Shown here in pieces: positions 5,132-64,000 of a stretch of 64,000 nucleotides of DNA. The stretch covers positions 22,314,501-22,378,500 of the forward strand of contig NC_090779.1 in assembly GCF_040054535.1 (NCBI RefSeq), in the 5' to 3' direction. The stretch's first letter is position 1; every line of letters begins with the position of its first letter. The position numbers and the translations under genes are program-made. Under the pieces are notes generated by a model. It saw only the letters and a list, made by a program, of their open reading frames with translations. It did not search any database and was not told where the DNA came from. This DNA comes from Antennarius striatus (taxonomy: Eukaryota > Chordata > Actinopteri > Lophiiformes > Antennariidae).

Positions 5132-6511
5132 TCAGGGGTCGCCACAGCGAATCAATTGCCTCCATCTAGCCCTGTCCTTTGCATCCTCTTCTCTCACACC
5201 AACTACCTTCATGTCCTCTTTCACTACATCCATAAACCTCCTCTTTGGTCTTCCTCCAGGCCTCCTGCCTGGCAGTTCAAAACTCAGCATCCTTCTACTA
5301 ATATATTCACTATCTCTCCTCTGGACATGTCCAAACCATCTCAGTCTGGCCTCTCTGACTTGATTTCCAAAACCTCTAACATGTGCTGTCCCTCTGATGT
5401 ACTCATTCCTGATCCTATCCTTCCTGGTCACTCCCAGAGAGAACCTCAGCATCTTCATCTCTGCTACCTCCAGCTCTGTCTCCTGTCTTTTCCTCAGTGA
5501 CACTGTCTCTAGACCAAAAAACATCGCTGGTCTCACCACAGTTTTGTACACCTTTCCTTTCATTTTAGCTGAAACTCTTCTATCACACATCACACCTGAC
5601 ACTTTCCTCCACCCGTTCCATCCTGCCTGTACACACTTCTTCACCTCTTTTCCACACTCTCCATTGCTCTGGACTGTTGACACTAAGTACTTAAAATCCT
5701 CCACCTTCTTGATCTCTTCTCCCTGTAACCTCACTCTTCCATTTGGGTCCCTCTCATTCACACACATGTACTCTGTCTTACTGCAGCCAACCTTCATTCC
5801 TCTCCTTTCCAGGACAAACCTCCACCTCTCTAGCTTCTCCTCCACCTGTTCCCTGCTCTCACTGCAGATCACAAAGTCATCTGCAAACATCATAGTCCAT
5901 GGAGATTCCTGTCTAACCTCGTCTGTCAGCCTGTCCATCACCACAGCGAACAAGAAGGGGCTCAGAGCTGATCCCTGATGCAGTCCCACCTCCACCTTGA
6001 ACTCCTCTGTCACACCTACAGCACACCTCACCACTGTCTTACAGTCCTCATATATGTCCTGCACTGCTCTAACATACTTCTCTGCCACTCCAGACCTCCT
6101 CATACAATACCACAGTTCCTCTCTGGACACCCTGTCATAAGCTTTCTCCAGATCTACAAAAACACAATGCAGCTCCCTCTGGCCTTCTCTGTACTTCTCT
6201 ATCAACATCCTCAAAGCAAATACTGCATCTGTAGTACTCTTTTTTGGCATTAAACCATACTGCTGCTCACAAACGTTCACTTCTGCCCTTAGTCTAGCTT
6301 CTACTACTCTCTCCCATAACTTCATTGTATGGCTCATCAGCTTTATTCCTCTGTAGTTGCCACAACTCTGCACATCTCCCTTGTTCTTAAAAATGGGCAC
6401 TAGCACACTTCTCCTCCACTCCTCAGGCATCTTCTCTCTATCTAAGATCCTGTTGAAGAATCCAGTCAGAAACTCTACTGCCACCTCCCCTCGACACTTC
6501 CATACCTCCAC
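5132..6511 (-). pseudogene. LINE reverse transcriptase ORF, C-terminal 459 codons
   Basis: This frame carries most of the RTE reverse transcriptase, the enzyme that copies element RNA at a nicked genomic target. Visible landmarks are GNYRGIKLMS near residues 51-60, FVDLEKAYDRV at 118-128 (catalytic Asp motif A), GLHQGSALSP at 176-185 (motif B), and the catalytic MMFADD ending at 212. After the polymerase come LRWFGHVQRRD near 390-400 and the terminal CGDP typical of the clade. The ORF is open for 459 codons, so decay is slight. It is continuous in origin with the upstream frame at 6475-7089, from which it is separated by a one-base loss near 6535. There is no sign of a host role. Confidence 0.93.
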
Positions 6512-7089
6512 AGGTATATCATCAGGACCGACTGCTTTCCGCTCTTCATCCTCTTCAATGCCCTCCTCACTTCATCCTGACTAATCTTTGCTACTTCCTG
6601 GTCCACAACAGTCACCTCTTCTAGTCTTTGTTCTCTCTCATTTTCCACATTCATCAACTCTTCAAAGTACTCTTTCCATCTTCCCATCACACTACTGGCA
6701 CCTGTCAATAGACTTCCATCCCTATCCTTAATCACCCTAACCTGCTGCACGTCCTTCCCATCTCTGTCTCTCTGTCTTGCCAACCGGTATAGATCAGTTT
6801 CTCCCTCCTTGCTGTCCAACCTAGCATACAAGTCATCATAAGCTTCTTGTTTGGCCTTTGCTACCTCTACCTTCACCTTACGCTGCATCTCCCTGTACTC
6901 CTGTCTACTCTCCTCAGTCCTCTCAGTGTCCCACTTCTTAGCTAACCTCTTTCTCTGTATACACTCCTGTACCTCCTCATTCCACCACCAAGTCTCCTTA
7001 TCTACTTTCTTTCCAGATGACACACCAAATACTCTCCTATCTGTCTCCCTGATCACATTAGCTGTAGTTTTCCAGTCATCTGGAAGCAC
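6475..7089 (-). pseudogene. LINE ORF, N-terminal part of the same coding region
   Basis: This 204-codon frame holds the part of the RTE polyprotein between endonuclease and polymerase. It contains ETWWWNEEVQECIQRKRLAKK-like text near residues 32-52 and then the start of the polymerase (RALKRMKSGK near residue 183). The normal continuation in the family is GK followed by a small-residue/GPDDIP stretch; here the frame shifts by one base near 6535 and the rest is read in the 5132-6511 frame. The first amino acids match the element's internal sequence, so the listed ATG is not a true start. The element is truncated just upstream, at 7140. Confidence 0.9.
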
Positions 7090-54139: not shown

Positions 54140-54197
54140 AGTCTCCATAGAGACTATTAAAATTACAATTGCTGAATATTTTTCAAGTTGTCAAGAC
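54140..54197 (+). repeat. single-copy relative of the tandem-array unit
   Basis: This 58-base stretch aligns with the array unit at 55869-55927: AGTCTCC.TAGAGACTAT, then AAAA, then a CAATTG/CCATTGG region, ending TTTCAA.TTGTCAAG. Most positions agree, with scattered mismatches and one gap by eye. It ends where the Penelope-like remnant begins. It may be an ancestral flank, an old escaped unit piece, or part of a shared element. Confidence 0.55.
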
Positions 54198-55090
54198 AAC
54201 AGAAGAAGCCTCTTGAATGAAATGTCTTCAATGAACTTCCCACAACCAGTTGATTGGACTTAATGCCTTAATAACCATGACCTCGATGAATGACAAGGAC
54301 ATGAGAGGAAGTTGAGGAGAGCAGCTAGTTATTCTTATACTCATTTTACAAATTATTAATTTTCTATATCTGACAATTCCAAGTCTTCATGGTGTTAAGT
54401 GAGCCTCATGCTCATCCAACGGTTGCTGTTTTTGATTGAATCTACAGATAAAACATATTATAGTCTTAATAAGCTCAGTAGGCAATATCAATTCAAAAGT
54501 TAATGCTCTTCAATTTTAATATTACACAGATAATAAGTCTCCTTAAAGTGTCTGAAAAGCTAAGGAGGATCTTTAACAAATACAAGGTTCCTGTGTAGTT
54601 TAAACCGGGAAACACCCTCTGACAAAAACTGGTCCATCCAAGATAAATGCAACGAGGAATGCTCCAATGTCTACATAGGGGAAACCAAATAACCACTACA
54701 CAGGCGCATGGCTCAACACAGAAGAGCCAACTCATCAGGACAGGACTCAGCAGTCTTCCTTCACCTCAAGGAAGAGGGACACTCATTTCAGGATACCGAT
54801 GTTCAGATCTTGGACAGGGAAGATATGTCCATGCTAATGACCCTCATTAGCACACAAAGGAGAAACTCGCATTTGAACAACCCCCCTTTGACACCCCCAT
54901 CAACAATCGTTGAAGAGGCAGACGGGTTTCAACGATGGTCGTTGGAATGTGAATAGCAATGACCACACCCACAGGGTTAATAAGTTGGGACATGACCAGC
55001 CACCTTCAGAACTGAAGAAGTCTCTTGGATGAGAGACGAAACGTCTTCAAGAACTTTCTAAACGTCCAATGAATTGACTTAAACAGCTTT
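54198..55090 (+). mobile_element. Penelope-like retroelement remnant (GIY-YIG endonuclease region)
   Basis: A fossil of a Penelope-like element. The middle (about 54647-54950) encodes recognisable endonuclease text: NVYIGET of the GIY-YIG fold and MAQHRRANSSGQDSAVFLHL further on. It is flanked by two related non-coding blocks in direct orientation, beginning GAAGAAGCCTCTTG at 54202 and GAAGAAGTCTCTTGG at 55014, each followed by ...CGTCTTCAA-like text. This layout fits the terminal repeats known for the family. The reverse transcriptase part is absent and the endonuclease frame is interrupted in several places, so the copy is broken and probably old. Confidence 0.8.
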
Positions 55091-55122
55091 CGAGATTAGA
55101 GAACTCAGACCGCCGCCTATGT

Positions 55123-55124
<2 letters not shown>

Positions 55125-55179
<55 letters not shown>

Positions 55180-55190
55180 ATGTGTGTGTG
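55125..55190. repeat. (TG)n microsatellite, slightly interrupted
   Basis: Sixty-six bases of TG with two interruptions (TTTG and TATG). It lies between the Penelope-like remnant and the tandem array. Confidence 0.97.
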
Positions 55191-55282
55191 AAACTTATGA
55201 GATAAAGTGACAGAAATGTTTATTGTATATTTAAACAAAATACATATGCAGCCAGCAAAATAATGAATGGCATGTATATAAT
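55191..55282. other. spacer to array edge
   Basis: AT-rich bases with no clear match to the array unit. Similarity to the unit starts at about the TGTTTAAA near 55280. Confidence 0.4.
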
Positions 55283-55865
55283 GTTTAAATCTCTTCAGAA
55301 CGCAACACGTGAAGAATATCAAATAGAAAACTTGGATATGTACAACTAAGACAAACTAGAAACATTACGCAGTAACTTCCAAACAACAGCTGCATTTTTA
55401 CAGTCGAGTAACTTCCAAACAACAGCTGCATTTTAATAATCGAGAAAATGTCATGGCAACAGATGAAAACAATTATGAACGTCAGATCTATTTTGAAAAT
55501 TTTGAATTCCAAATTTAAGAAGTGAATAACCGAAATACACGAAGACATGACATGAAAACAGAAAAAAAATCTGTATGGAAACAAACCATCTCATCTAAAA
55601 TAGCATCTTTGAAGGTTTTCTTAAAACTCAAGCTGCGTGTAGTGTCTCAAACAGACTCTTCATTTACCAACACTTCATGACCCTTCTTAGAATCACAGTC
55701 ACTCATCACTTCCGAGTCACAAGGGCGGGGTATTGGCGATAGCTTTCAATGAGTAGGAATTAAATGAAACTTTACTTTAATGATCGCTGTCTTTAGACAT
55801 ATCCAAGAATGCCTTGCAATGTCCCATCTATTCATCAATCAACTTATGTTACTTTTAGACAGATA
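55283..55865. repeat. left-edge partial unit, diverged
   Basis: This covers the part of the unit from TGTTTAAA to the next anchor. It starts diverged (for example GAACGCAACACGTGAAG versus GAGTGCAACACGTAAAG) and becomes almost identical further right. It contains a local 36-base direct duplication, 55372-55407 and 55408-55443, not seen in other units. More divergence at the edge than inside is typical of tandem arrays. Confidence 0.85.
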
Positions 55866-56724
55866 ATGAGTCTCCTTAGAGACTATCAAAAATTGCCATT
55901 GGCGATTATATTTCAAATTGTCAAGGCGGGGTATTGGGTAAAGTTTTCAACTAGCAATAATCGCGCCTCGGGTAAACCTCATAGGCTACGATACTGCCAC
56001 TGCGCAAAGCTGATGGTAAGATTGGACCACCAGCATCATGTCTCTACTCACACTCCTCTTTGCTATGGTTTCAACAATGGCCCTGGTCTCAGCTACCAGT
56101 CTTTCGTGTGTGGGAAAAACCAAAAACAGGGTCAGCGCCACACAGTACCTCTACAGACTATCAAAATGTTCATGTTTAAAGAGAGTGCAACACGTAAAGA
56201 TCAAATGGAAAACTTAGAAAAGTACAACTAAAGCAAACTAGAAAGGTGACAACATTATGGTGTAACTTCCAACTTTTTCCAAATATCAGATGCATTTTAA
56301 TAATCGAGAAAATGTCATGGCAACAGATGAAAACAATTATGAACGTCAGATCTATTTTGAAACTTTTGAATTCCAAATTTAAGAAGTGAATAACCGAAAT
56401 ACACGCAGACATGACATGAAAACAGAAAAAAAATCTGTATGGAAACAAACCATCTCATCTAAAATAGCATCTTTGAAGGTTTTCTTAAAACTCAAGCTGC
56501 GTGTAGTGTCTCAAACAGACTCTTCATTTACCAACACTTCATGACCCTTCTTAGAATCACAGTCACTCATCACTTCCGAGTCACAAGGGCGGGGTATTGG
56601 CTATAGCTTTCAATGAGTAGGAATTAAATGATACTTTAATGATCACTGTCTTTAGACATATCCAAGAATGCCTTGCAATGTCCCATCTATTCATCAATGA
56701 ACTTATGTTACTTTTAGACAGATA
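55866..56724. repeat. array unit 1 (859 bp)
   Basis: First complete unit. It differs from the others in two informative places. It has CTTTCGTGTGTG where all others have CTTTAGTGTGTG, so the signal-peptide-like frame reads on. Its plus-strand frame extends upstream to give 140 codons (55809-56231). Confidence 0.95.
56038..56217 (+). other. signal-peptide-like 59-codon ORF in array unit 1
   Basis: The frame starts MSLLTLLFAMV and continues to ALVSATSL: a run of leucine, alanine, methionine and valine ending in VSA, which looks like a secretory signal sequence with a plausible cleavage after Ala. In this unit it continues through SCVGKTKNRVSATQYLYRL and KCSCLKRV to a stop at 56215-56217, giving a basic, three-cysteine tail. 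In every other unit that keeps the ATG, the frame stops after 22 codons (TAG right after ATSL). The tail is probably not under coding selection. The unit may have captured the first coding exon of a secreted-protein gene, with GTGTGT at the end as a weak splice donor. I cannot name the gene. Confidence 0.25.
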
Positions 56725-57583
56725 ATGAGTCTCCTTAGAGACTATCAAAAATTGCCATTGGCAATTATATTTCAAATTGTCAAGGCGGGGTATTGGGTAA
56801 AGTTTTCAACTAGCAATAATCGCGCCTCGGGTAAACCTCATAGGCTACGATACTACCACTGCGCAAAACTGATGGTAAGATTGGACCACCAGCATCATGT
56901 CTCTACTCACACTCCTCTTTGCTATGGTTTCAACAATGGCCTTGGTCTCAGCTACCAGTCTTTAGTGTGTGAGAAAAACCAAAAACAGGGTCAGCGCCAC
57001 ACAGTACCTCTACAGACTATCAAAATGTTCATGTTTAAAGAGAGTGCAACACGTAAAGATCAAATGGAAAACTTAGAAAAGTACAACTAAAGCAAACTAG
57101 AAAGGTGACAACATTATGGTGTAACTTCCAACTTTTTCCAAATATCAGATGCATTTTAATAATCGAGAAAATGTCATGGCAACAGACGAAAACAATTATG
57201 AACGTCAGATCTATTTTGAAAATTTTGAATTCCAAATTTAAGAAGTGAATAACCGAAATACACGCAGACATGACATGAAAACAGAAAAAAAATCTGTATG
57301 GAAACAAACCATCTCATCTAAAATAGCATCTTTGAAGGTTTTCTTAAAACTCAAGCTGCGTGTAGTGTCTCAAACAGACTCTTCATTTACCAACACTTCA
57401 TGACCCTTCTTAGAATCACAGTCACTCATCACTTCCGAGTCACAAGGGCGGGGTATCGGCTATAGCTTTCAATGAGTAGGAATTAAATGATACTTTAATG
57501 ATCACTGTCTTTAGACATATCCAAGAATGCCTTGCAATGTCCCATCTATTCATCAATGAACTTATGTTACTTTTAGACAGATA
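56725..57583. repeat. array unit 2 (859 bp)
   Basis: Full-length unit of the 859 class. The 22-codon signal-like frame is at 56897-56965. The 121-codon plus frame is intact (56725-57090). Confidence 0.95.
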
Positions 57584-58442
57584 ATGAGTCTCCTTAGAGA
57601 CTATCAAAAATTGCCATTGGCAATTATATTTCAAATTGTCAAGGCGGGGTATTGGGTAAAGTTTTCAACTAGCAATAATCGCGCCTCGGGTAGACCTCAT
57701 AGGCTACGATACTACCACTGCGCAAAACTGATGGTAAGATTGGACCACCAGCATCATGTCTCTACTCACACTCCTCTTTGCTATGGTTTCAACAATGGCC
57801 TTGGTCTCAGCTACCAGTCTTTAGTGTGTGAGAAAAACCAAAAACAGGGTCAGCGCCACACAGTACCTCTACAGACTATCAAAATGTTCATGTTTAAAGA
57901 GAGTGCAACACGTAAAGATCAAATGGAAAACTTAGAAAAGTACAACTAAAGCAAACTAGAAAGGTGACAACATTATGGTGTAACTTCCAACTTTTTCCAA
58001 ATATCAGATGCATTTTAATAATCGAGAAAATGTCATGGCAACAGACGAAAACAATTATGAACGTCAGATCTATTTTGAAAATTTTGAATTCCAAATTTAA
58101 GAAGTGAATAACCGAAATACACGCAGACATGACATGAAAACAGAAAAAAAATCTGTATGGAAACAAACCATCTCATCTAAAATAGCATCTTTGAAGGTTT
58201 TCTTAAAACTCAAGCTGCGTGTAGTGTCTCAAACAGACTCTTCATTTACCAACACTTCATGACCCTTCTTAGAATCACAGTCACTCATCACTTCCGAGTC
58301 ACAAGGGCGGGGTATCGGCTATAGCTTTCAATGAGTAGGAATTAAATGATACTTTAATGATCACTGTCTTTAGACATATCCAAGAATGCCTTGCAATGTC
58401 CCATCTATTCATCAATGAACTTATGTTACTTTTAGACAGATA
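57584..58442. repeat. array unit 3 (859 bp)
   Basis: Nearly identical to unit 2; differences include GGTAGACCTC for GGTAAACCTC. The 121-codon frame is intact. Confidence 0.95.
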
Positions 58443-59301
58443 ATGAGTCTCCTTAGAGACTATCAAAAATTGCCATTGGCAATTATATTTCAAATTGTCA
58501 AGGCGGGGTATTGGGTAAAGTTTTCAACTAGCAATAATCGCGCCTCGGGTAGACCTCATAGGCTACGATACTGCCACTGCGCAAAGCTGATGGTAAGATT
58601 GGACCACCAGCATCATGTCTCTACTCGCACTCCTCTTTGCTATGGTTTCAACAATGGCCTTGGTCTCAGCTACCAGTCTTTAGTGTGTGAGAAAAACCAA
58701 AAACAGGGTCAGCGCCACACAGTACCTCTACAGACTATCAAAATGTTCATGTTTAAAGAGAGTGCAACACGTAAAGATCAAATGGAAAACTTAGAAAAGT
58801 ACAACTAAAGCAAACTAGAAAGGTGACAACATTATGGTGTAACTTCCAACTTTTTCCAAATATCAGATGCATTTTAATAATCGAGAAAATGTCATGGCAA
58901 CAGACGAAAACAATTATGAACGTCAGATCTATTTTGAAAATTTTGAATTCCAAATTTAAGAAGTGAATAACCGAAATACACGCAGACATGACATGAAAAC
59001 AGAAAAAAAATCTGTATGGAAACAAACCATCTCATCTAAAATAGCATCTTTGAAGGTTTTCTTAAAACTCAAGCTGCGTGTAGTGTCTCAAACAGACTCT
59101 TCATTTACCAACACTTCATGACCCTTCTTAGAATCACAGTCACTCATCACTTCCGAGTCACAAGGGCGGGGTATCGGCTATAGCTTTCAATGAGTAGGAA
59201 TTAAATGATACTTTAATGATCACTGTCTTTAGACATATCCAAGAATGCCTTGCAATGTCCCATCTATTCATCAATGAACTTATGTTACTTTTAGACAGAT
59301 A
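58443..59301. repeat. array unit 4 (859 bp)
   Basis: Nearly identical to unit 3. One change (ACTCGCACTCC) alters both overlapping frames. The 121-codon frame is intact. Confidence 0.95.
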
Positions 59302-60011
59302 ATGAGTCTCCTTAGAGACTATCAAAAATTGCCATTGGCAATTATATTTCAAATTGTCAAGGCGGGGTATTGGGTAAAGTTTTCAACTAGCAATAATCGC
59401 GCCTCGGGTAGACCTCATAGGCTACGATACTGCCACTGCGCAAAGCTGATGGTAAGATTGGACCACCAGCATCAATTTCTCTACTCACACTCCTCTTTGC
59501 TATGGTTTCAACAATGGCCCTGGTCTCAGCTACCAGTCTTTAGTGTGTGGGAAAAACCAAAAACAGGGTCAGCGCCACACAGTACCTCTACAGACTATCA
59601 AAATGTTCATGTTTAAAGAGAGTGCAACACGTAAAGATCAAATGGAAAACTTAGAAAAGTACAACTAAAGCAAACTAGAAAGGTGACAACATTATGGTGT
59701 AACTTCCAACAGAAAAAAAATCTGTATGGAAACAAACCATCTCATCTAAAATAGCATCTTTGAAGGTTTTCTTAAAACTCAAACTGCGTGTAGTGTCTCA
59801 AACAGACTCTTCATTTACCAACACTTCAGGACCCTTCTTAGAATCACAGTCACTCATCACTTCCGAGCCACAAGGGCGGGGTATTGGCTATAGCTTTCAA
59901 TGAGTAGGAATTAAATGATACTTTAATGATCACTGTGTTTAGACATATCCAAGAATGCCTTGCAATGTCCCATCTATTCATCAATGAACTTATGTTACTT
60001 TTAGACAGATA
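59302..60011. repeat. array unit 5 (710 bp, short class)
   Basis: It carries the 150-base deletion (junction 59710/59711) and a one-base gain near 59475 that removes the ATG of the signal-like frame and shifts the 121-codon frame. Its neutral loss of both frames argues against an essential product. Confidence 0.95.
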
Positions 60012-60875
60012 ATGAGTCTCCTTAGAGACTATCAAAAATTGCCATTGGCAATTATATTTCAAATTGTCAAGGCTGGGTATTGGGTAAAGTTTTCAACTAG
60101 CAATAATCGCGCCTCGGGTAAACCTCATAGGCTACGATACTGCCACTGCGCAAAGCTGATGGTAAGATTGGACCACCAGCATCATGTCTCTACTCACACT
60201 CCTCTTTGCTATGGTTTCAACAATGGCCCTGGTCTCAGCTACCAGTCTTTAGTGTGTGGGAAAAACCAAAAACAGGGTCAGCGCCACACAGTACCTCTAC
60301 AGACTATCAAAATGTTCATGTTTAAAGAGAGTGCAACACGTAAAGATCAAATGGAAAACTTAGAAAAGTACAACTAAAGCAAACTAGAAAGGTGACAACA
60401 TTATGGTGTAACTTCCAACTTTTTCCAAATATCAGATGCATTTTAATAATCGAGAAAATGTCATGGCAACAGACGATAACAATTATGAACGTCAGATCTA
60501 TTTAGAAAATTTTGAATTCCAAATTTAAGAAGTGAATAACCGAAATACACGCAGACATGACATGAAAACAGAAAAAAAATCTGTATGGAAACAAACCATC
60601 TCATCTAAAATAGCATCTTTGAAGGTTTTCTTAAAACTCAAACTGCGTGTAGTGTCTCAAACAGACTCTTCATTTACCAACACTTCATGACCCTTCTTAG
60701 AATCACAGTCACTCATCACTTCCGAGTCAAAAGGGCAGGGTATTGGCTATAGCTTTCAATGAGTAGGAATTAAATGAAACTTTACTTTAATGATCGCTGT
60801 CTTTAGACATATCCAAGAATGTCTTGCAATGTCCCATCTATTCATCAATGAACTTATATTACTTTTAGACAGATA
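60012..60875. repeat. array unit 6 (864 bp, long class)
   Basis: Long-class unit; it shares the diagnostic ACGATAACAATTATG and TATTTAGAAAATTTTG with units 7 and 9. The 121-codon frame is intact. Confidence 0.95.
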
Positions 60876-61739
60876 ATGAGTCTCCTTAGAGACTATCAAA
60901 AATTGCCATTGGCAATTATATTTCAAATTGTCAAGGCTGGGTATTGGGTAAAGTTTTCAACTAGCAATAATCGCGCCTCGGGTAAACCTCATAGGCTACG
61001 ATACTGCCACTGCGCAAAGCTGATGGTAAGATTGGACCACCAGCATCATGTCTCTACTCACACTCCTCTTTGCTATGGTTTCAACAATGGCCCTGGTCTC
61101 AGCTACCAGTCTTTAGTGTGTGGGAAAAACCAAAAACAGGGTCAGCGCCACACAGTACCTCTACAGACTATCAAAATGTTCATGTTTAAAGAGAGTGCAA
61201 CACGTAAAGATCAAATGGAAAACTTAGAAAAGTACAACTAAAGCAAACTAGAAAGGTGACAACATTATGGTGTAACTTCCAACTTTTTCCAAATATCAGA
61301 TGCATTTTAATAATCGAGAAAATGTCATGGCAACAGACGATAACAATTATGAACGTCAGATCTATTTAGAAAATTTTGAATTCCAAATTTAAGAAGTGAA
61401 TAACCGAAATACACGCAGACATGACATGAAAACAGAAAAAAAATCTGTATGGAAACAAACCATCTCATCTAAAATAGCATCTTTGAAGGTTTTCTTAAAA
61501 CTCAAACTGCGTGTAGTGTCTCAAACAGACTCTTCATTTACCAACACTTCATGACCCTTCTTAGAATCACAGTCACTCATCACTTCCGAGTCAAAAGGGC
61601 AGGGTATTGGCTATAGCTTTCAATGAGTAGGAATTAAATGAAACTTTACTTTAATGATCGCTGTCTTTAGACATATCCAAGAATGTCTTGCAATGTCCCA
61701 TCTATTCATCAATGAACTTATATTACTTTTAGACAGATA
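60876..61739. repeat. array unit 7 (864 bp, long class)
   Basis: Near-identical to unit 6, implying a recent local duplication. The 121-codon frame is intact. Confidence 0.95.
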
Positions 61740-62448
61740 ATGAGTCTCCTTAGAGACTATCAAAAATTGCCATTGGCAATTATATTTCAAATTGTCAAGG
61801 CGGGGTATTGGGTAAAGTTTTCAACTAGCAATAATCGCGCCTCGGGTAAACCTCATAGGCTACGATACTGCCACTGCGCAAAGCTGTTGGTGAGATTGGA
61901 CCACCAGCATCATGTCTCTACTCACACTCCTCTTTGCTATGGTTTCAACAATGGCCCTGGTCTCAGCTACCAGTCTTTAGTGTGTGGGAAAAACCAAAAA
62001 CAGGGTCAGCGCCACACAGTACCTCTACAGACTATCAAAATGTTCATGTTTAAAGAGAGTGCAACACGTAAAGATCAAATGGAAAACTTAGAAAAGTACA
62101 ACTAAAGCAAACTAGAAAGGTGACAACATTATGGTGTAACTTCCAACAGAAAAAAAATCTGTATGGAAACAAACCATCTCATCTAAAATAGCATCTTTGA
62201 AGGTTTTCTTAAAACTCAAGCTGCGTGTAGTGTCTCAAACAGACTCTTCATTTACCAACACTTCATGACCCTTCTTAGAATCACAGTCACTCATCACTTC
62301 CGAGTCACAAGGGCGGGGTATTGGCTATAGCTTTCAATGAGTAGGAATTAAATGATACTTTGATGATCACTGTCTTTAGACATATCCAAGAATGTCTTGC
62401 AATGTCCCATCTATTCATCAATGAACTTATGTTACTTTTAGACAGATA
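61740..62448. repeat. array unit 8 (709 bp, short class)
   Basis: Same 150-base deletion as unit 5 (junction 62147/62148), without the extra base. It begins the GCTGTTGGTGAGATTGG variant that also marks units 9 and 10. Confidence 0.95.
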
Positions 62449-63312
62449 ATGAGTCTCCTTAGAGACTATCAAAAATTGCCATTGGCAATTATATTTCAAA
62501 TTGTCAAGGCGGGGTATTGGGTAAAGTTTTCAACTAGCAATAATCGCGCCTCGGGTAAACCTCATAGGCTACGATACTGCCACTGCGCAAAGCTGTTGGT
62601 GAGATTGGACCACCAGCATCATGTCTCTACTCACACTCCTCTTTGCTATGGTTTCAACAATGGCCCTGGTCTCAGCTACCAGTCTTTAGTGTGTGGGAAA
62701 AACCAAAAACAGGGTCAGCGCCACACAGTACCTCTACAGACTATCAAAATGTTCATGTTTAAAGAGAGTGCAACACGTAAAGATCAAATGGAAAACTTAG
62801 AAAAGTACAACTAAAGCAAACTAGAAAGGTGACAACATTATGGTGTAACTTCCAACTTTTTCCAAATATCAGATGCATTTTAATAATCGAGAAAATGTCA
62901 TGGCAACAGACGATAACAATTATGAACGTCAGATCTATTTAGAAAATTTTGAATTCCAAATTTAAGAAGTGAATAACCGAAATACACGCAGACATGACAT
63001 GAAAACAGAAAAAAAATCTGTATGGAAACAAACCATCTCATCTAAAATAGCATCTTTGAAGGTTTTCTTAAAACTCAAACTGCGTGTAGTGTCTCAAACA
63101 GACTCTTCATTTACCAACACTTCATGACCCTTCTTAGAATCACAGTCACTCATCACTTCCGAGTCAAAAGGGCAGGGTATTGGCTATAGCTTTCAATGAG
63201 TAGGAATTAAATGAAACTTTACTTTAATGATCGCTGTCTTTAGACATATCCAAGAATGTCTTGCAATGTCCCATCTATTCATCAATGAACTTATATTACT
63301 TTTAGACAGATA
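62449..63312. repeat. array unit 9 (864 bp, long class)
   Basis: Long class, carrying the TTGGTGAGA variant of unit 8. The 121-codon frame is intact. Confidence 0.95.
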
Positions 63313-64000
63313 ATGAGTCTCCTTAGAGACTATCAAAAATTGCCATTGGCAATTATATTTCAAATTGTCAAGGCGGGGTATTGGGTAAAGTTTTCAACTA
63401 GCAATAATGGCGCCTCGGGTAAACCTCATAGGCTACGATACTGCCACTGCGCAAAGCTGTTGGTGAGATTGGACCACCAGCATCATGTCTCTACTCACAC
63501 TCCTCTTTGCTATGGTTTCAACAATGGCCCTGGTCTCAGCTACCAGTCTTTAGTGTGTGGGAAAAACCAAAAACAGGGTCAGCGCCACACAGTACCTCTA
63601 CAGACTATCAAAATGTTCATGTTTAAAGAGAGTGCAACACGTAAAGATCAAATGGAAAACTTAGAAAAGTACAACTAAAGCAAACTAGAAAGGTGACAAC
63701 ATTATGGTGTAACTTCCAACAGAAAAAAAATCTGTATGGAAACAAACCATCTCATCTAAAATAGCATCTTTGAAGGTTTTCTTAAAACTCAAGCTGCGTG
63801 TAGTGTCTCAAACAGACTCTTCATTTACCAACACTTCATGACCCTTCTTAGAATCACAGTCACTCATCACTTCCGAGTCACAAGGGCGGGGTATTTGCTA
63901 TAGCTTTCAATGAGTAGGAATTAAATGATACTTTAATGATCACTGTCTTTAGACATATCCAAGAATGCCTTGCAATGTCCCATCTATTCATCAATGAACT
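63313..64000. repeat. array unit 10 (short class, cut by window end)
   Basis: It shares the short-class junction (63720/63721) and is cut at the window edge. Units 7-8 and 9-10 both read long-short, so a two-unit higher-order period of about 1573 bp may be forming. Confidence 0.95.

Follow-up and report, generated by a model that had tools for sequence, protein, structure and literature searches.

A tandem array of 18 U4 spliceosomal small nuclear RNA genes in the genome of Antennarius striatus

The window analysed in the present study, a stretch of 64,000 nucleotides of contig NC_090779.1 of Antennarius striatus (C4:22314501-22378500; the genome comprises 548 Mb in 42 contigs), ends in a tandem array, each unit of which contains one full-length gene of the U4 spliceosomal small nuclear RNA (snRNA) on the minus strand, as indicated by cmscan with the Rfam model RF00015. 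All ten U4 genes in the window match model positions 1-138 with scores of 120.7-127.1 bits, the gathering score of RF00015 being 46 bits, and these ten are the only cmscan matches above the cut-off in the whole window; their identity as U4 is near certain. A scan of positions 54500-64000 taken to an E-value of 1 gave only the same ten matches and no other RNA inside the unit, and a tRNA was looked for in the unit and not found. A U4 search of the genome showed that the array continues for 6 kb beyond the window, up to window coordinate 70072 (C4:22384572), and includes 18 U4 genes in total, all 18 of full length. The first-pass annotation, made from the sequence alone, was right that the array runs off the window; its statement that the repeat matches no known element, and its suggestion of an unknown satellite, are not supported, since every unit consists of a U4 snRNA gene and the sequence flanking it. 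The repeat is a multigene array under concerted evolution, and it is highly probable that it represents a tandem array of 18 U4 genes, most of which can be expected to be transcribed, an estimate that leaves any developmental role to one side. Tandem snRNA gene arrays are already known as a kind; this U4 array is a further example, in which very recent duplication steps are plainly visible. A false lead is thereby removed, the repeat being a required gene family. The U4 genes of the window are as follows (scores with RF00015):

55871..56011, minus strand, U4 copy 1, 123.8 bits
56730..56870, minus strand, U4 copy 2, with C3T and C16T relative to copy 8, 123.7 bits
57589..57729, minus strand, U4 copy 3, with C3T, C16T and T37C, 122.4 bits
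58448..58588, minus strand, U4 copy 4, 125.8 bits
59307..59447, minus strand, U4 copy 5, 125.8 bits
60017..60157, minus strand, U4 copy 6, 123.8 bits
60881..61021, minus strand, U4 copy 7, 123.8 bits
61745..61885, minus strand, U4 copy 8, which opens the duplicated four-unit block, 127.1 bits
62454..62594, minus strand, U4 copy 9, 127.1 bits
63318..63458, minus strand, U4 copy 10, with G50C, 120.7 bits

The in-window genes span 55871-63458, all in one orientation, and their starts reproduce exactly the spacings reported at first pass for at least ten copies (859 bp four times, 710, 864 twice, 709 and 864 bp). Over the whole array the spacings are 859 (four times), 710, 864, 864, 709, 864, 709 (three times), 864, 709 (three times) and 864 bp, making three length classes; about 150 bp of spacer, at a distance of more than 260 bp upstream from the start of the gene, is missing from the 709/710-bp units, and 5 bp present in the 864-bp units are absent from the 859-bp and 709-bp units. 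Pairwise identity among the 18 units is 97.7-100%, and of the 40-mers in positions 55283-64000, 91% recur within that stretch; no 40-mer recurs in five shuffles or in an upstream control stretch of 8.7 kb. A single common U4 sequence is found in eight of the 18 copies; the other ten carry one to three substitutions each, at seven positions in all.

Unit 7 (60881-61744) is identical to unit 6 (60017-60880), with no differences over 864 bp, and units 8-11 (61745-64735) and 12-15 (64736-67726) form tandem blocks of 2,991 bp with one difference between them, the substitution G50C in the U4 gene at 63318, which abolishes the pair between positions 22 and 50 in the 5' stem-loop. A third, partial round is represented by units 16 and 17, which differ from units 12 and 13 by three and two bases, respectively. 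The identity of units 6 and 7 and the repetition of the four-unit block are direct evidence of recent exchange in one-unit and four-unit steps, and they bear out the earlier proposal of ongoing unequal exchange or gene conversion. The divergence of the left edge, also noticed earlier, was confirmed by a BLAST search with an 864-bp unit, which gave 83.6% identity over 55302-55362 and 96.9% over 55413-55870. The features concerned are listed below (TRF, Tandem Repeats Finder):

55302..55870, no strand assigned, decayed left part-unit, spacer without a gene, with a 36-bp direct duplication at 55371-55444 (BLAST, TRF)
61745..64000, no strand assigned, in-window part of the four-unit block 61745-64735, which is repeated in tandem at 64736-67726 (1 difference in 2,991 bp)
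54142..54195, minus strand, decayed U4 gene fragment covering nt 87-141, 1.7 kb beyond copy 1 (BLAST, 80% over 55 bp, E 8e-6)

The genome search scored 41 U4 candidates and listed 28 matches, and repeat counts taken from it are lower bounds. Among the matches listed, 18 belong to the array, one is an isolated gene, three form a second cluster and six are weaker. The isolated gene (C4:22386046-22386186, window coordinate 71546-71686) has the highest score among the matches listed, 130.4 bits; it possesses its own block resembling a proximal sequence element (PSE), and high-identity alignment of its surroundings to the array unit is confined to the gene region. The second, diverged cluster (C4:20188324-20189995) lies about 2.2 Mb from the array on the same contig and contains two full genes (125 and 118.4 bits) 863 bp apart and a third copy, which is a part match beside a 61-base run of N. 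The array unit shows about 58% identity to this cluster over the whole unit and 86.5% over the gene and its 3' edge; beyond the gene-rich match the identity is only about 55-62%, so the spacer evolves fast. The six weaker matches (34.7-70.2 bits) are located on C9, C20 (two), C10, at C4:6738000 and on C19; the C9 copy follows the U4 sequence over roughly its first 80 bases and diverges thereafter, as truncated pseudogenes do.

Covariance-model alignments of three copies contain the 5' stem-loop, the 3' stem-loop, the terminal stem-loop and the sequence AATTTTTG, which we take to be the Sm-type site. Between the array gene and the isolated gene there are eight differences in 141 positions, and two pairs of the 3' stem-loop are changed on both sides, from A-U in the array to G-C in the isolated gene at 93-108 and from U-A to C-G at 95-106; a third two-sided change, at 133-138, was found in the terminal stem of a second-cluster gene. 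Pairs were counted over ten sequences (eight distinct array variants, the isolated gene and one gene of the second cluster, the shorter gene of that cluster being left out). Pairing is retained in 95.8% of 260 cells, compared with a shuffle mean of 94.0 and with no shuffle out of 500 reaching this value, and the three pairs changed on both sides compare with a shuffle mean of 1.0, six of the 500 shuffles reaching three.

Upstream of all 18 array genes there is the same PSE-like 20-mer, AACCATAGCAAAGAGGAGTG, which begins at -59 in 17 of them and at -60 in copy 5. A joint motif search in 15 upstream regions of this genome (four U4, five U1 and six U5 genes) found a block at -66 to -45 in all 15, with 15.2 bits against 10.7-11.7 bits in 20 shuffles (150 restarts for the real set and 60 for the shuffles), a figure that is raised because several of the regions are close copies of one another. 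With a matrix built from nine of the U1 and U5 blocks, two array genes and the isolated gene each have their site ranked first of 483 positions on the gene strand. As judged from sequence, the array genes thus appear to have a PSE around -55, as do vertebrate snRNA genes transcribed by RNA polymerase II (Pol II). The latter also have a 3' box 9-19 nt downstream, and a candidate for it, GTCTAAAAGTAA(C/T)A, i.e., GTCTAAAAGTAACA or GTCTAAAAGTAATA, is located at +11 in 17 of the 18 copies, the remaining copy having a further change; we take this candidate to be close, though not equal, to the 3' box consensus. For copy 8 the two elements are:

61925..61944, minus strand, PSE-like block AACCATAGCAAAGAGGAGTG, -59 to -40 of copy 8 (20-mer comparison; motif common to U1 and U5 genes)
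61721..61734, minus strand, candidate 3' box GTCTAAAAGTAATA, starting 11 nt past the Rfam end of copy 8 (sequence comparison)

The array genes look like working genes, since all 18 are of full length and preceded by the same PSE-like 20-mer, and most of the copies are probably transcribed. Each unit would act as an independent minus-strand gene with its own promoter, read by Pol II via the PSE, with the transcript ending at the 3' box and the U4 product pairing with U6 in the U4/U6 small nuclear ribonucleoprotein (di-snRNP). U4 joins U6 in this way in cells, which need U4 for the splicing of messages, and many copies could provide the high U4 output required where demand is high. Unequal exchange, duplicating blocks of one to four units, would keep the copies alike, and the array edge would decay. 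The first-pass alternative of an amplified, once-functional locus therefore holds as to amplification; "once-functional" does not fit 18 full-length genes with an unchanged PSE-like block.

Other snRNA genes of the same genome have a comparable layout. For U1, at least 42 matches were found. The 38 on C17 are mostly spaced by multiples of 750 bp, and the part of C17 that was read is 99.6% identical to itself at a lag of 750; four more lie on C13 within 14 kb and have a different sequence and higher scores (172.5-173.2 bits versus 163.2-163.7 bits on C17). For U5, there are at least 47 matches. The spacing of the 43 on C2 is mostly a multiple of 457 bp, with 83.7% self-identity at this lag in the part of C2 that was read, and four of different sequence are found on C21 within 10 kb; the best single U5 score lies on C2, so the score split is unlike that of U1 and U4. 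The U1 array occupies C17:2168941-2219804 and the U5 array C2:5296207-5342593. Among the matches listed, therefore, U4, U1 and U5 each fall into a large tandem group and a small one that stands apart and has another sequence. The U1 and U5 arrays resemble the U4 array in their head-to-tail snRNA genes accompanied by a small distinct group, and differ from it in the RNAs encoded and in having no homology to the U4 unit at E 0.1, short stretches being compared.

The presence of the array beside a distinct single gene makes it possible to examine whether early development in this lineage relies on a U4 type of its own. That the array is a high-demand source of U4 in oocytes and early embryos, the isolated gene being the somatic type, has by analogy about an even chance of being correct. 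The analogy is with the switching of U4 isoforms in Xenopus and chicken, as described in the accessible part of PMC4291461. The available text of PMC11075544, citing a preprint, places maternal U1 and U6 genes on zebrafish chromosome 4 together with two U4 sequences called somatic, and because of that designation the zebrafish chromosome, as far as this text goes, does not directly favour a maternal array of U4 genes and speaks against the oocyte and embryo role, which rests on analogy. A rival to this developmental part, and to this part only, is that the array is a working source of U4 in all tissues with no developmental split, to which we would give somewhat less than an even chance. It agrees with the distribution of strong matches, since 21 of the U4 matches listed score above 118 bits, all 21 on C4, and 18 of them are in the array; against it, a second, distinct U4 sequence adjoins the array, U1 and U5 have a similar two-group layout, and isoform switching is reported for U4 itself in the portion of PMC4291461 just mentioned.

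Some observations weigh against the array being a set of transcribed U4 genes. Within the array (17 units, the truncated unit 18 being left out), variation affects seven of the 141 columns of the gene and 26 of the 723 columns of the spacer; the gene varies no less than the spacer does, so no recent selection on single copies can be seen. In the ten sequences compared, further pair types numbered 5, which is not above the shuffles (mean 5.8), and nine of the ten do not form the pair 36-40 that the supplied structure includes. Single-sequence folds of five U4 copies were not unusually stable (z from -0.9 to -1.9), and the argument from structure is accordingly based on the covariance model and the pair counts. 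With the U1/U5 matrix, the two sites of the second cluster rank second and third of 483, being outscored on the other strand; the scan is not independent, because it took its block positions from the joint search, and a motif search restricted to U1 and U5 missed the PSE block and picked out a GT repeat and other sequences unlike the PSE. Vertebrate Pol II snRNA genes have a distal element, an octamer or a ZNF143/Staf-type site, near -220; no octamer within one mismatch was present in the 350 bp upstream of the array gene, and no distal element was identified there. Only the isolated gene shows a candidate, found by eye, the sequence CCCATGATGCATTGCGGG at -208, which resembles a ZNF143/Staf site.

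The similar variability of gene and spacer and the missing octamer-type element are what one would find in a silent satellite that passively carries a dead, no longer transcribed U4 copy. This explanation is nevertheless very unlikely, given that all 18 copies are of full length and eight have one sequence, that the changes relative to the isolated gene preserve the 3' stem pairs and that the PSE-like 20-mer is unchanged throughout. Over a longer time, the comparisons with the isolated gene and with the second cluster point to the gene having been kept relative to the spacer, the opposite of the picture within the array. An assembly artefact, in which one unit was included repeatedly, could account for identical units and is scarcely credible in view of the private variants, the three length classes in structured order, the difference between the two array edges and the continuity of the array in the assembly, where 84 kb of joined sequence contain no N.

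At least 43 matches were found for U6, the partner of U4, and 19 of the 36 above the cut-off are on C4. Among the matches listed, 15 of the 16 scoring above 98 bits, a line drawn after the list was seen, are on C4 and one is on C18; the high-scoring C4 groups are at 22.25, 24.61-24.63 and 25.18 Mb, and one trio is about 116 kb from the U4 array. These high-scoring U6 genes on C4 are at 22247058, 22253166, 22253942 and within 24609130-25179760. The colocalisation of U4 and U6 is a lead and not a statistic, because duplications within a chromosome are non-independent. It appears rather improbable that C4, with 26.7 of the 548 Mb, is a shared home of the U4/U6 di-snRNP partners, with tandem U4 as the oocyte/embryo form, and that this colocalisation is old, conserved and related to zebrafish chromosome 4, which is rich in snRNA genes.

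Among known systems, the human RNU2-1 locus (U2, 17q21.31), with a copy number from 6 to more than 80 per chromosome according to the part of PMC13083260 available, is similarly a large tandem array of one snRNA gene; it differs in encoding U2, and human U4 is represented, in the same text, by at least two functional genes. In primates, concerted evolution of the U2 array is known from titles in citing papers. In Plectorhinchus mediterraneus, the available section of PMC3464664 describes U2-U5 snDNA (snRNA gene) arrays with a PSE and a 3' box that are said to evolve in concert; like the present array, in which the 3' box is a candidate, they consist of tandem snRNA genes with these elements, but their units are mixed U2-U5 and those described here contain U4 alone. 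U4 snDNA has been mapped by fluorescence in situ hybridisation (FISH) in Hollandichthys multifasciatus (PMC8056886, in excerpt), and U4 sites in Apareiodon and Parodon are known from a title cited in PMC12923391; in these fishes, too, U4 genes are clustered on chromosomes, although in the text available they are known as hybridisation signals, without unit sequence. A literature search returned FISH mapping and the zebrafish work and, within the texts available, no unit sequence of a fish U4 array, which is not a claim of its absence from print. The assembled array exposes duplications of one and four units, a new mutation confined to a single copy and an edge in decay, beside a distinct single U4 gene.

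Two further features of the units were considered and set aside. The repeated open reading frames of 121 aa lie on the strand opposite to U4, cross the gene and promoter and follow from the repeat, and no coding meaning is attached to them. Each spacer contains a weak U4-like stretch (nt 62-90; 83-87% over 26-30 bp), for which no claim is made, the wider alignment scoring 162 and the top of 500 shuffles 182.

TG repeats lie just beyond both array ends, at 55125-55190 and at window coordinate 70120-70201; other likeness between the two flanks was limited to matches of 10-16 bp with E above 0.5. The stretch 54630-55080 resembles, by eye, a retroelement's 3' part containing a GIY-YIG-like frame, for which Pfam gave no match at E 0.01. 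The minus strand at 5132-6571 contains an open reading frame that encodes a reverse transcriptase domain (PF00078, E 2.5e-33) and belongs to a retroelement.

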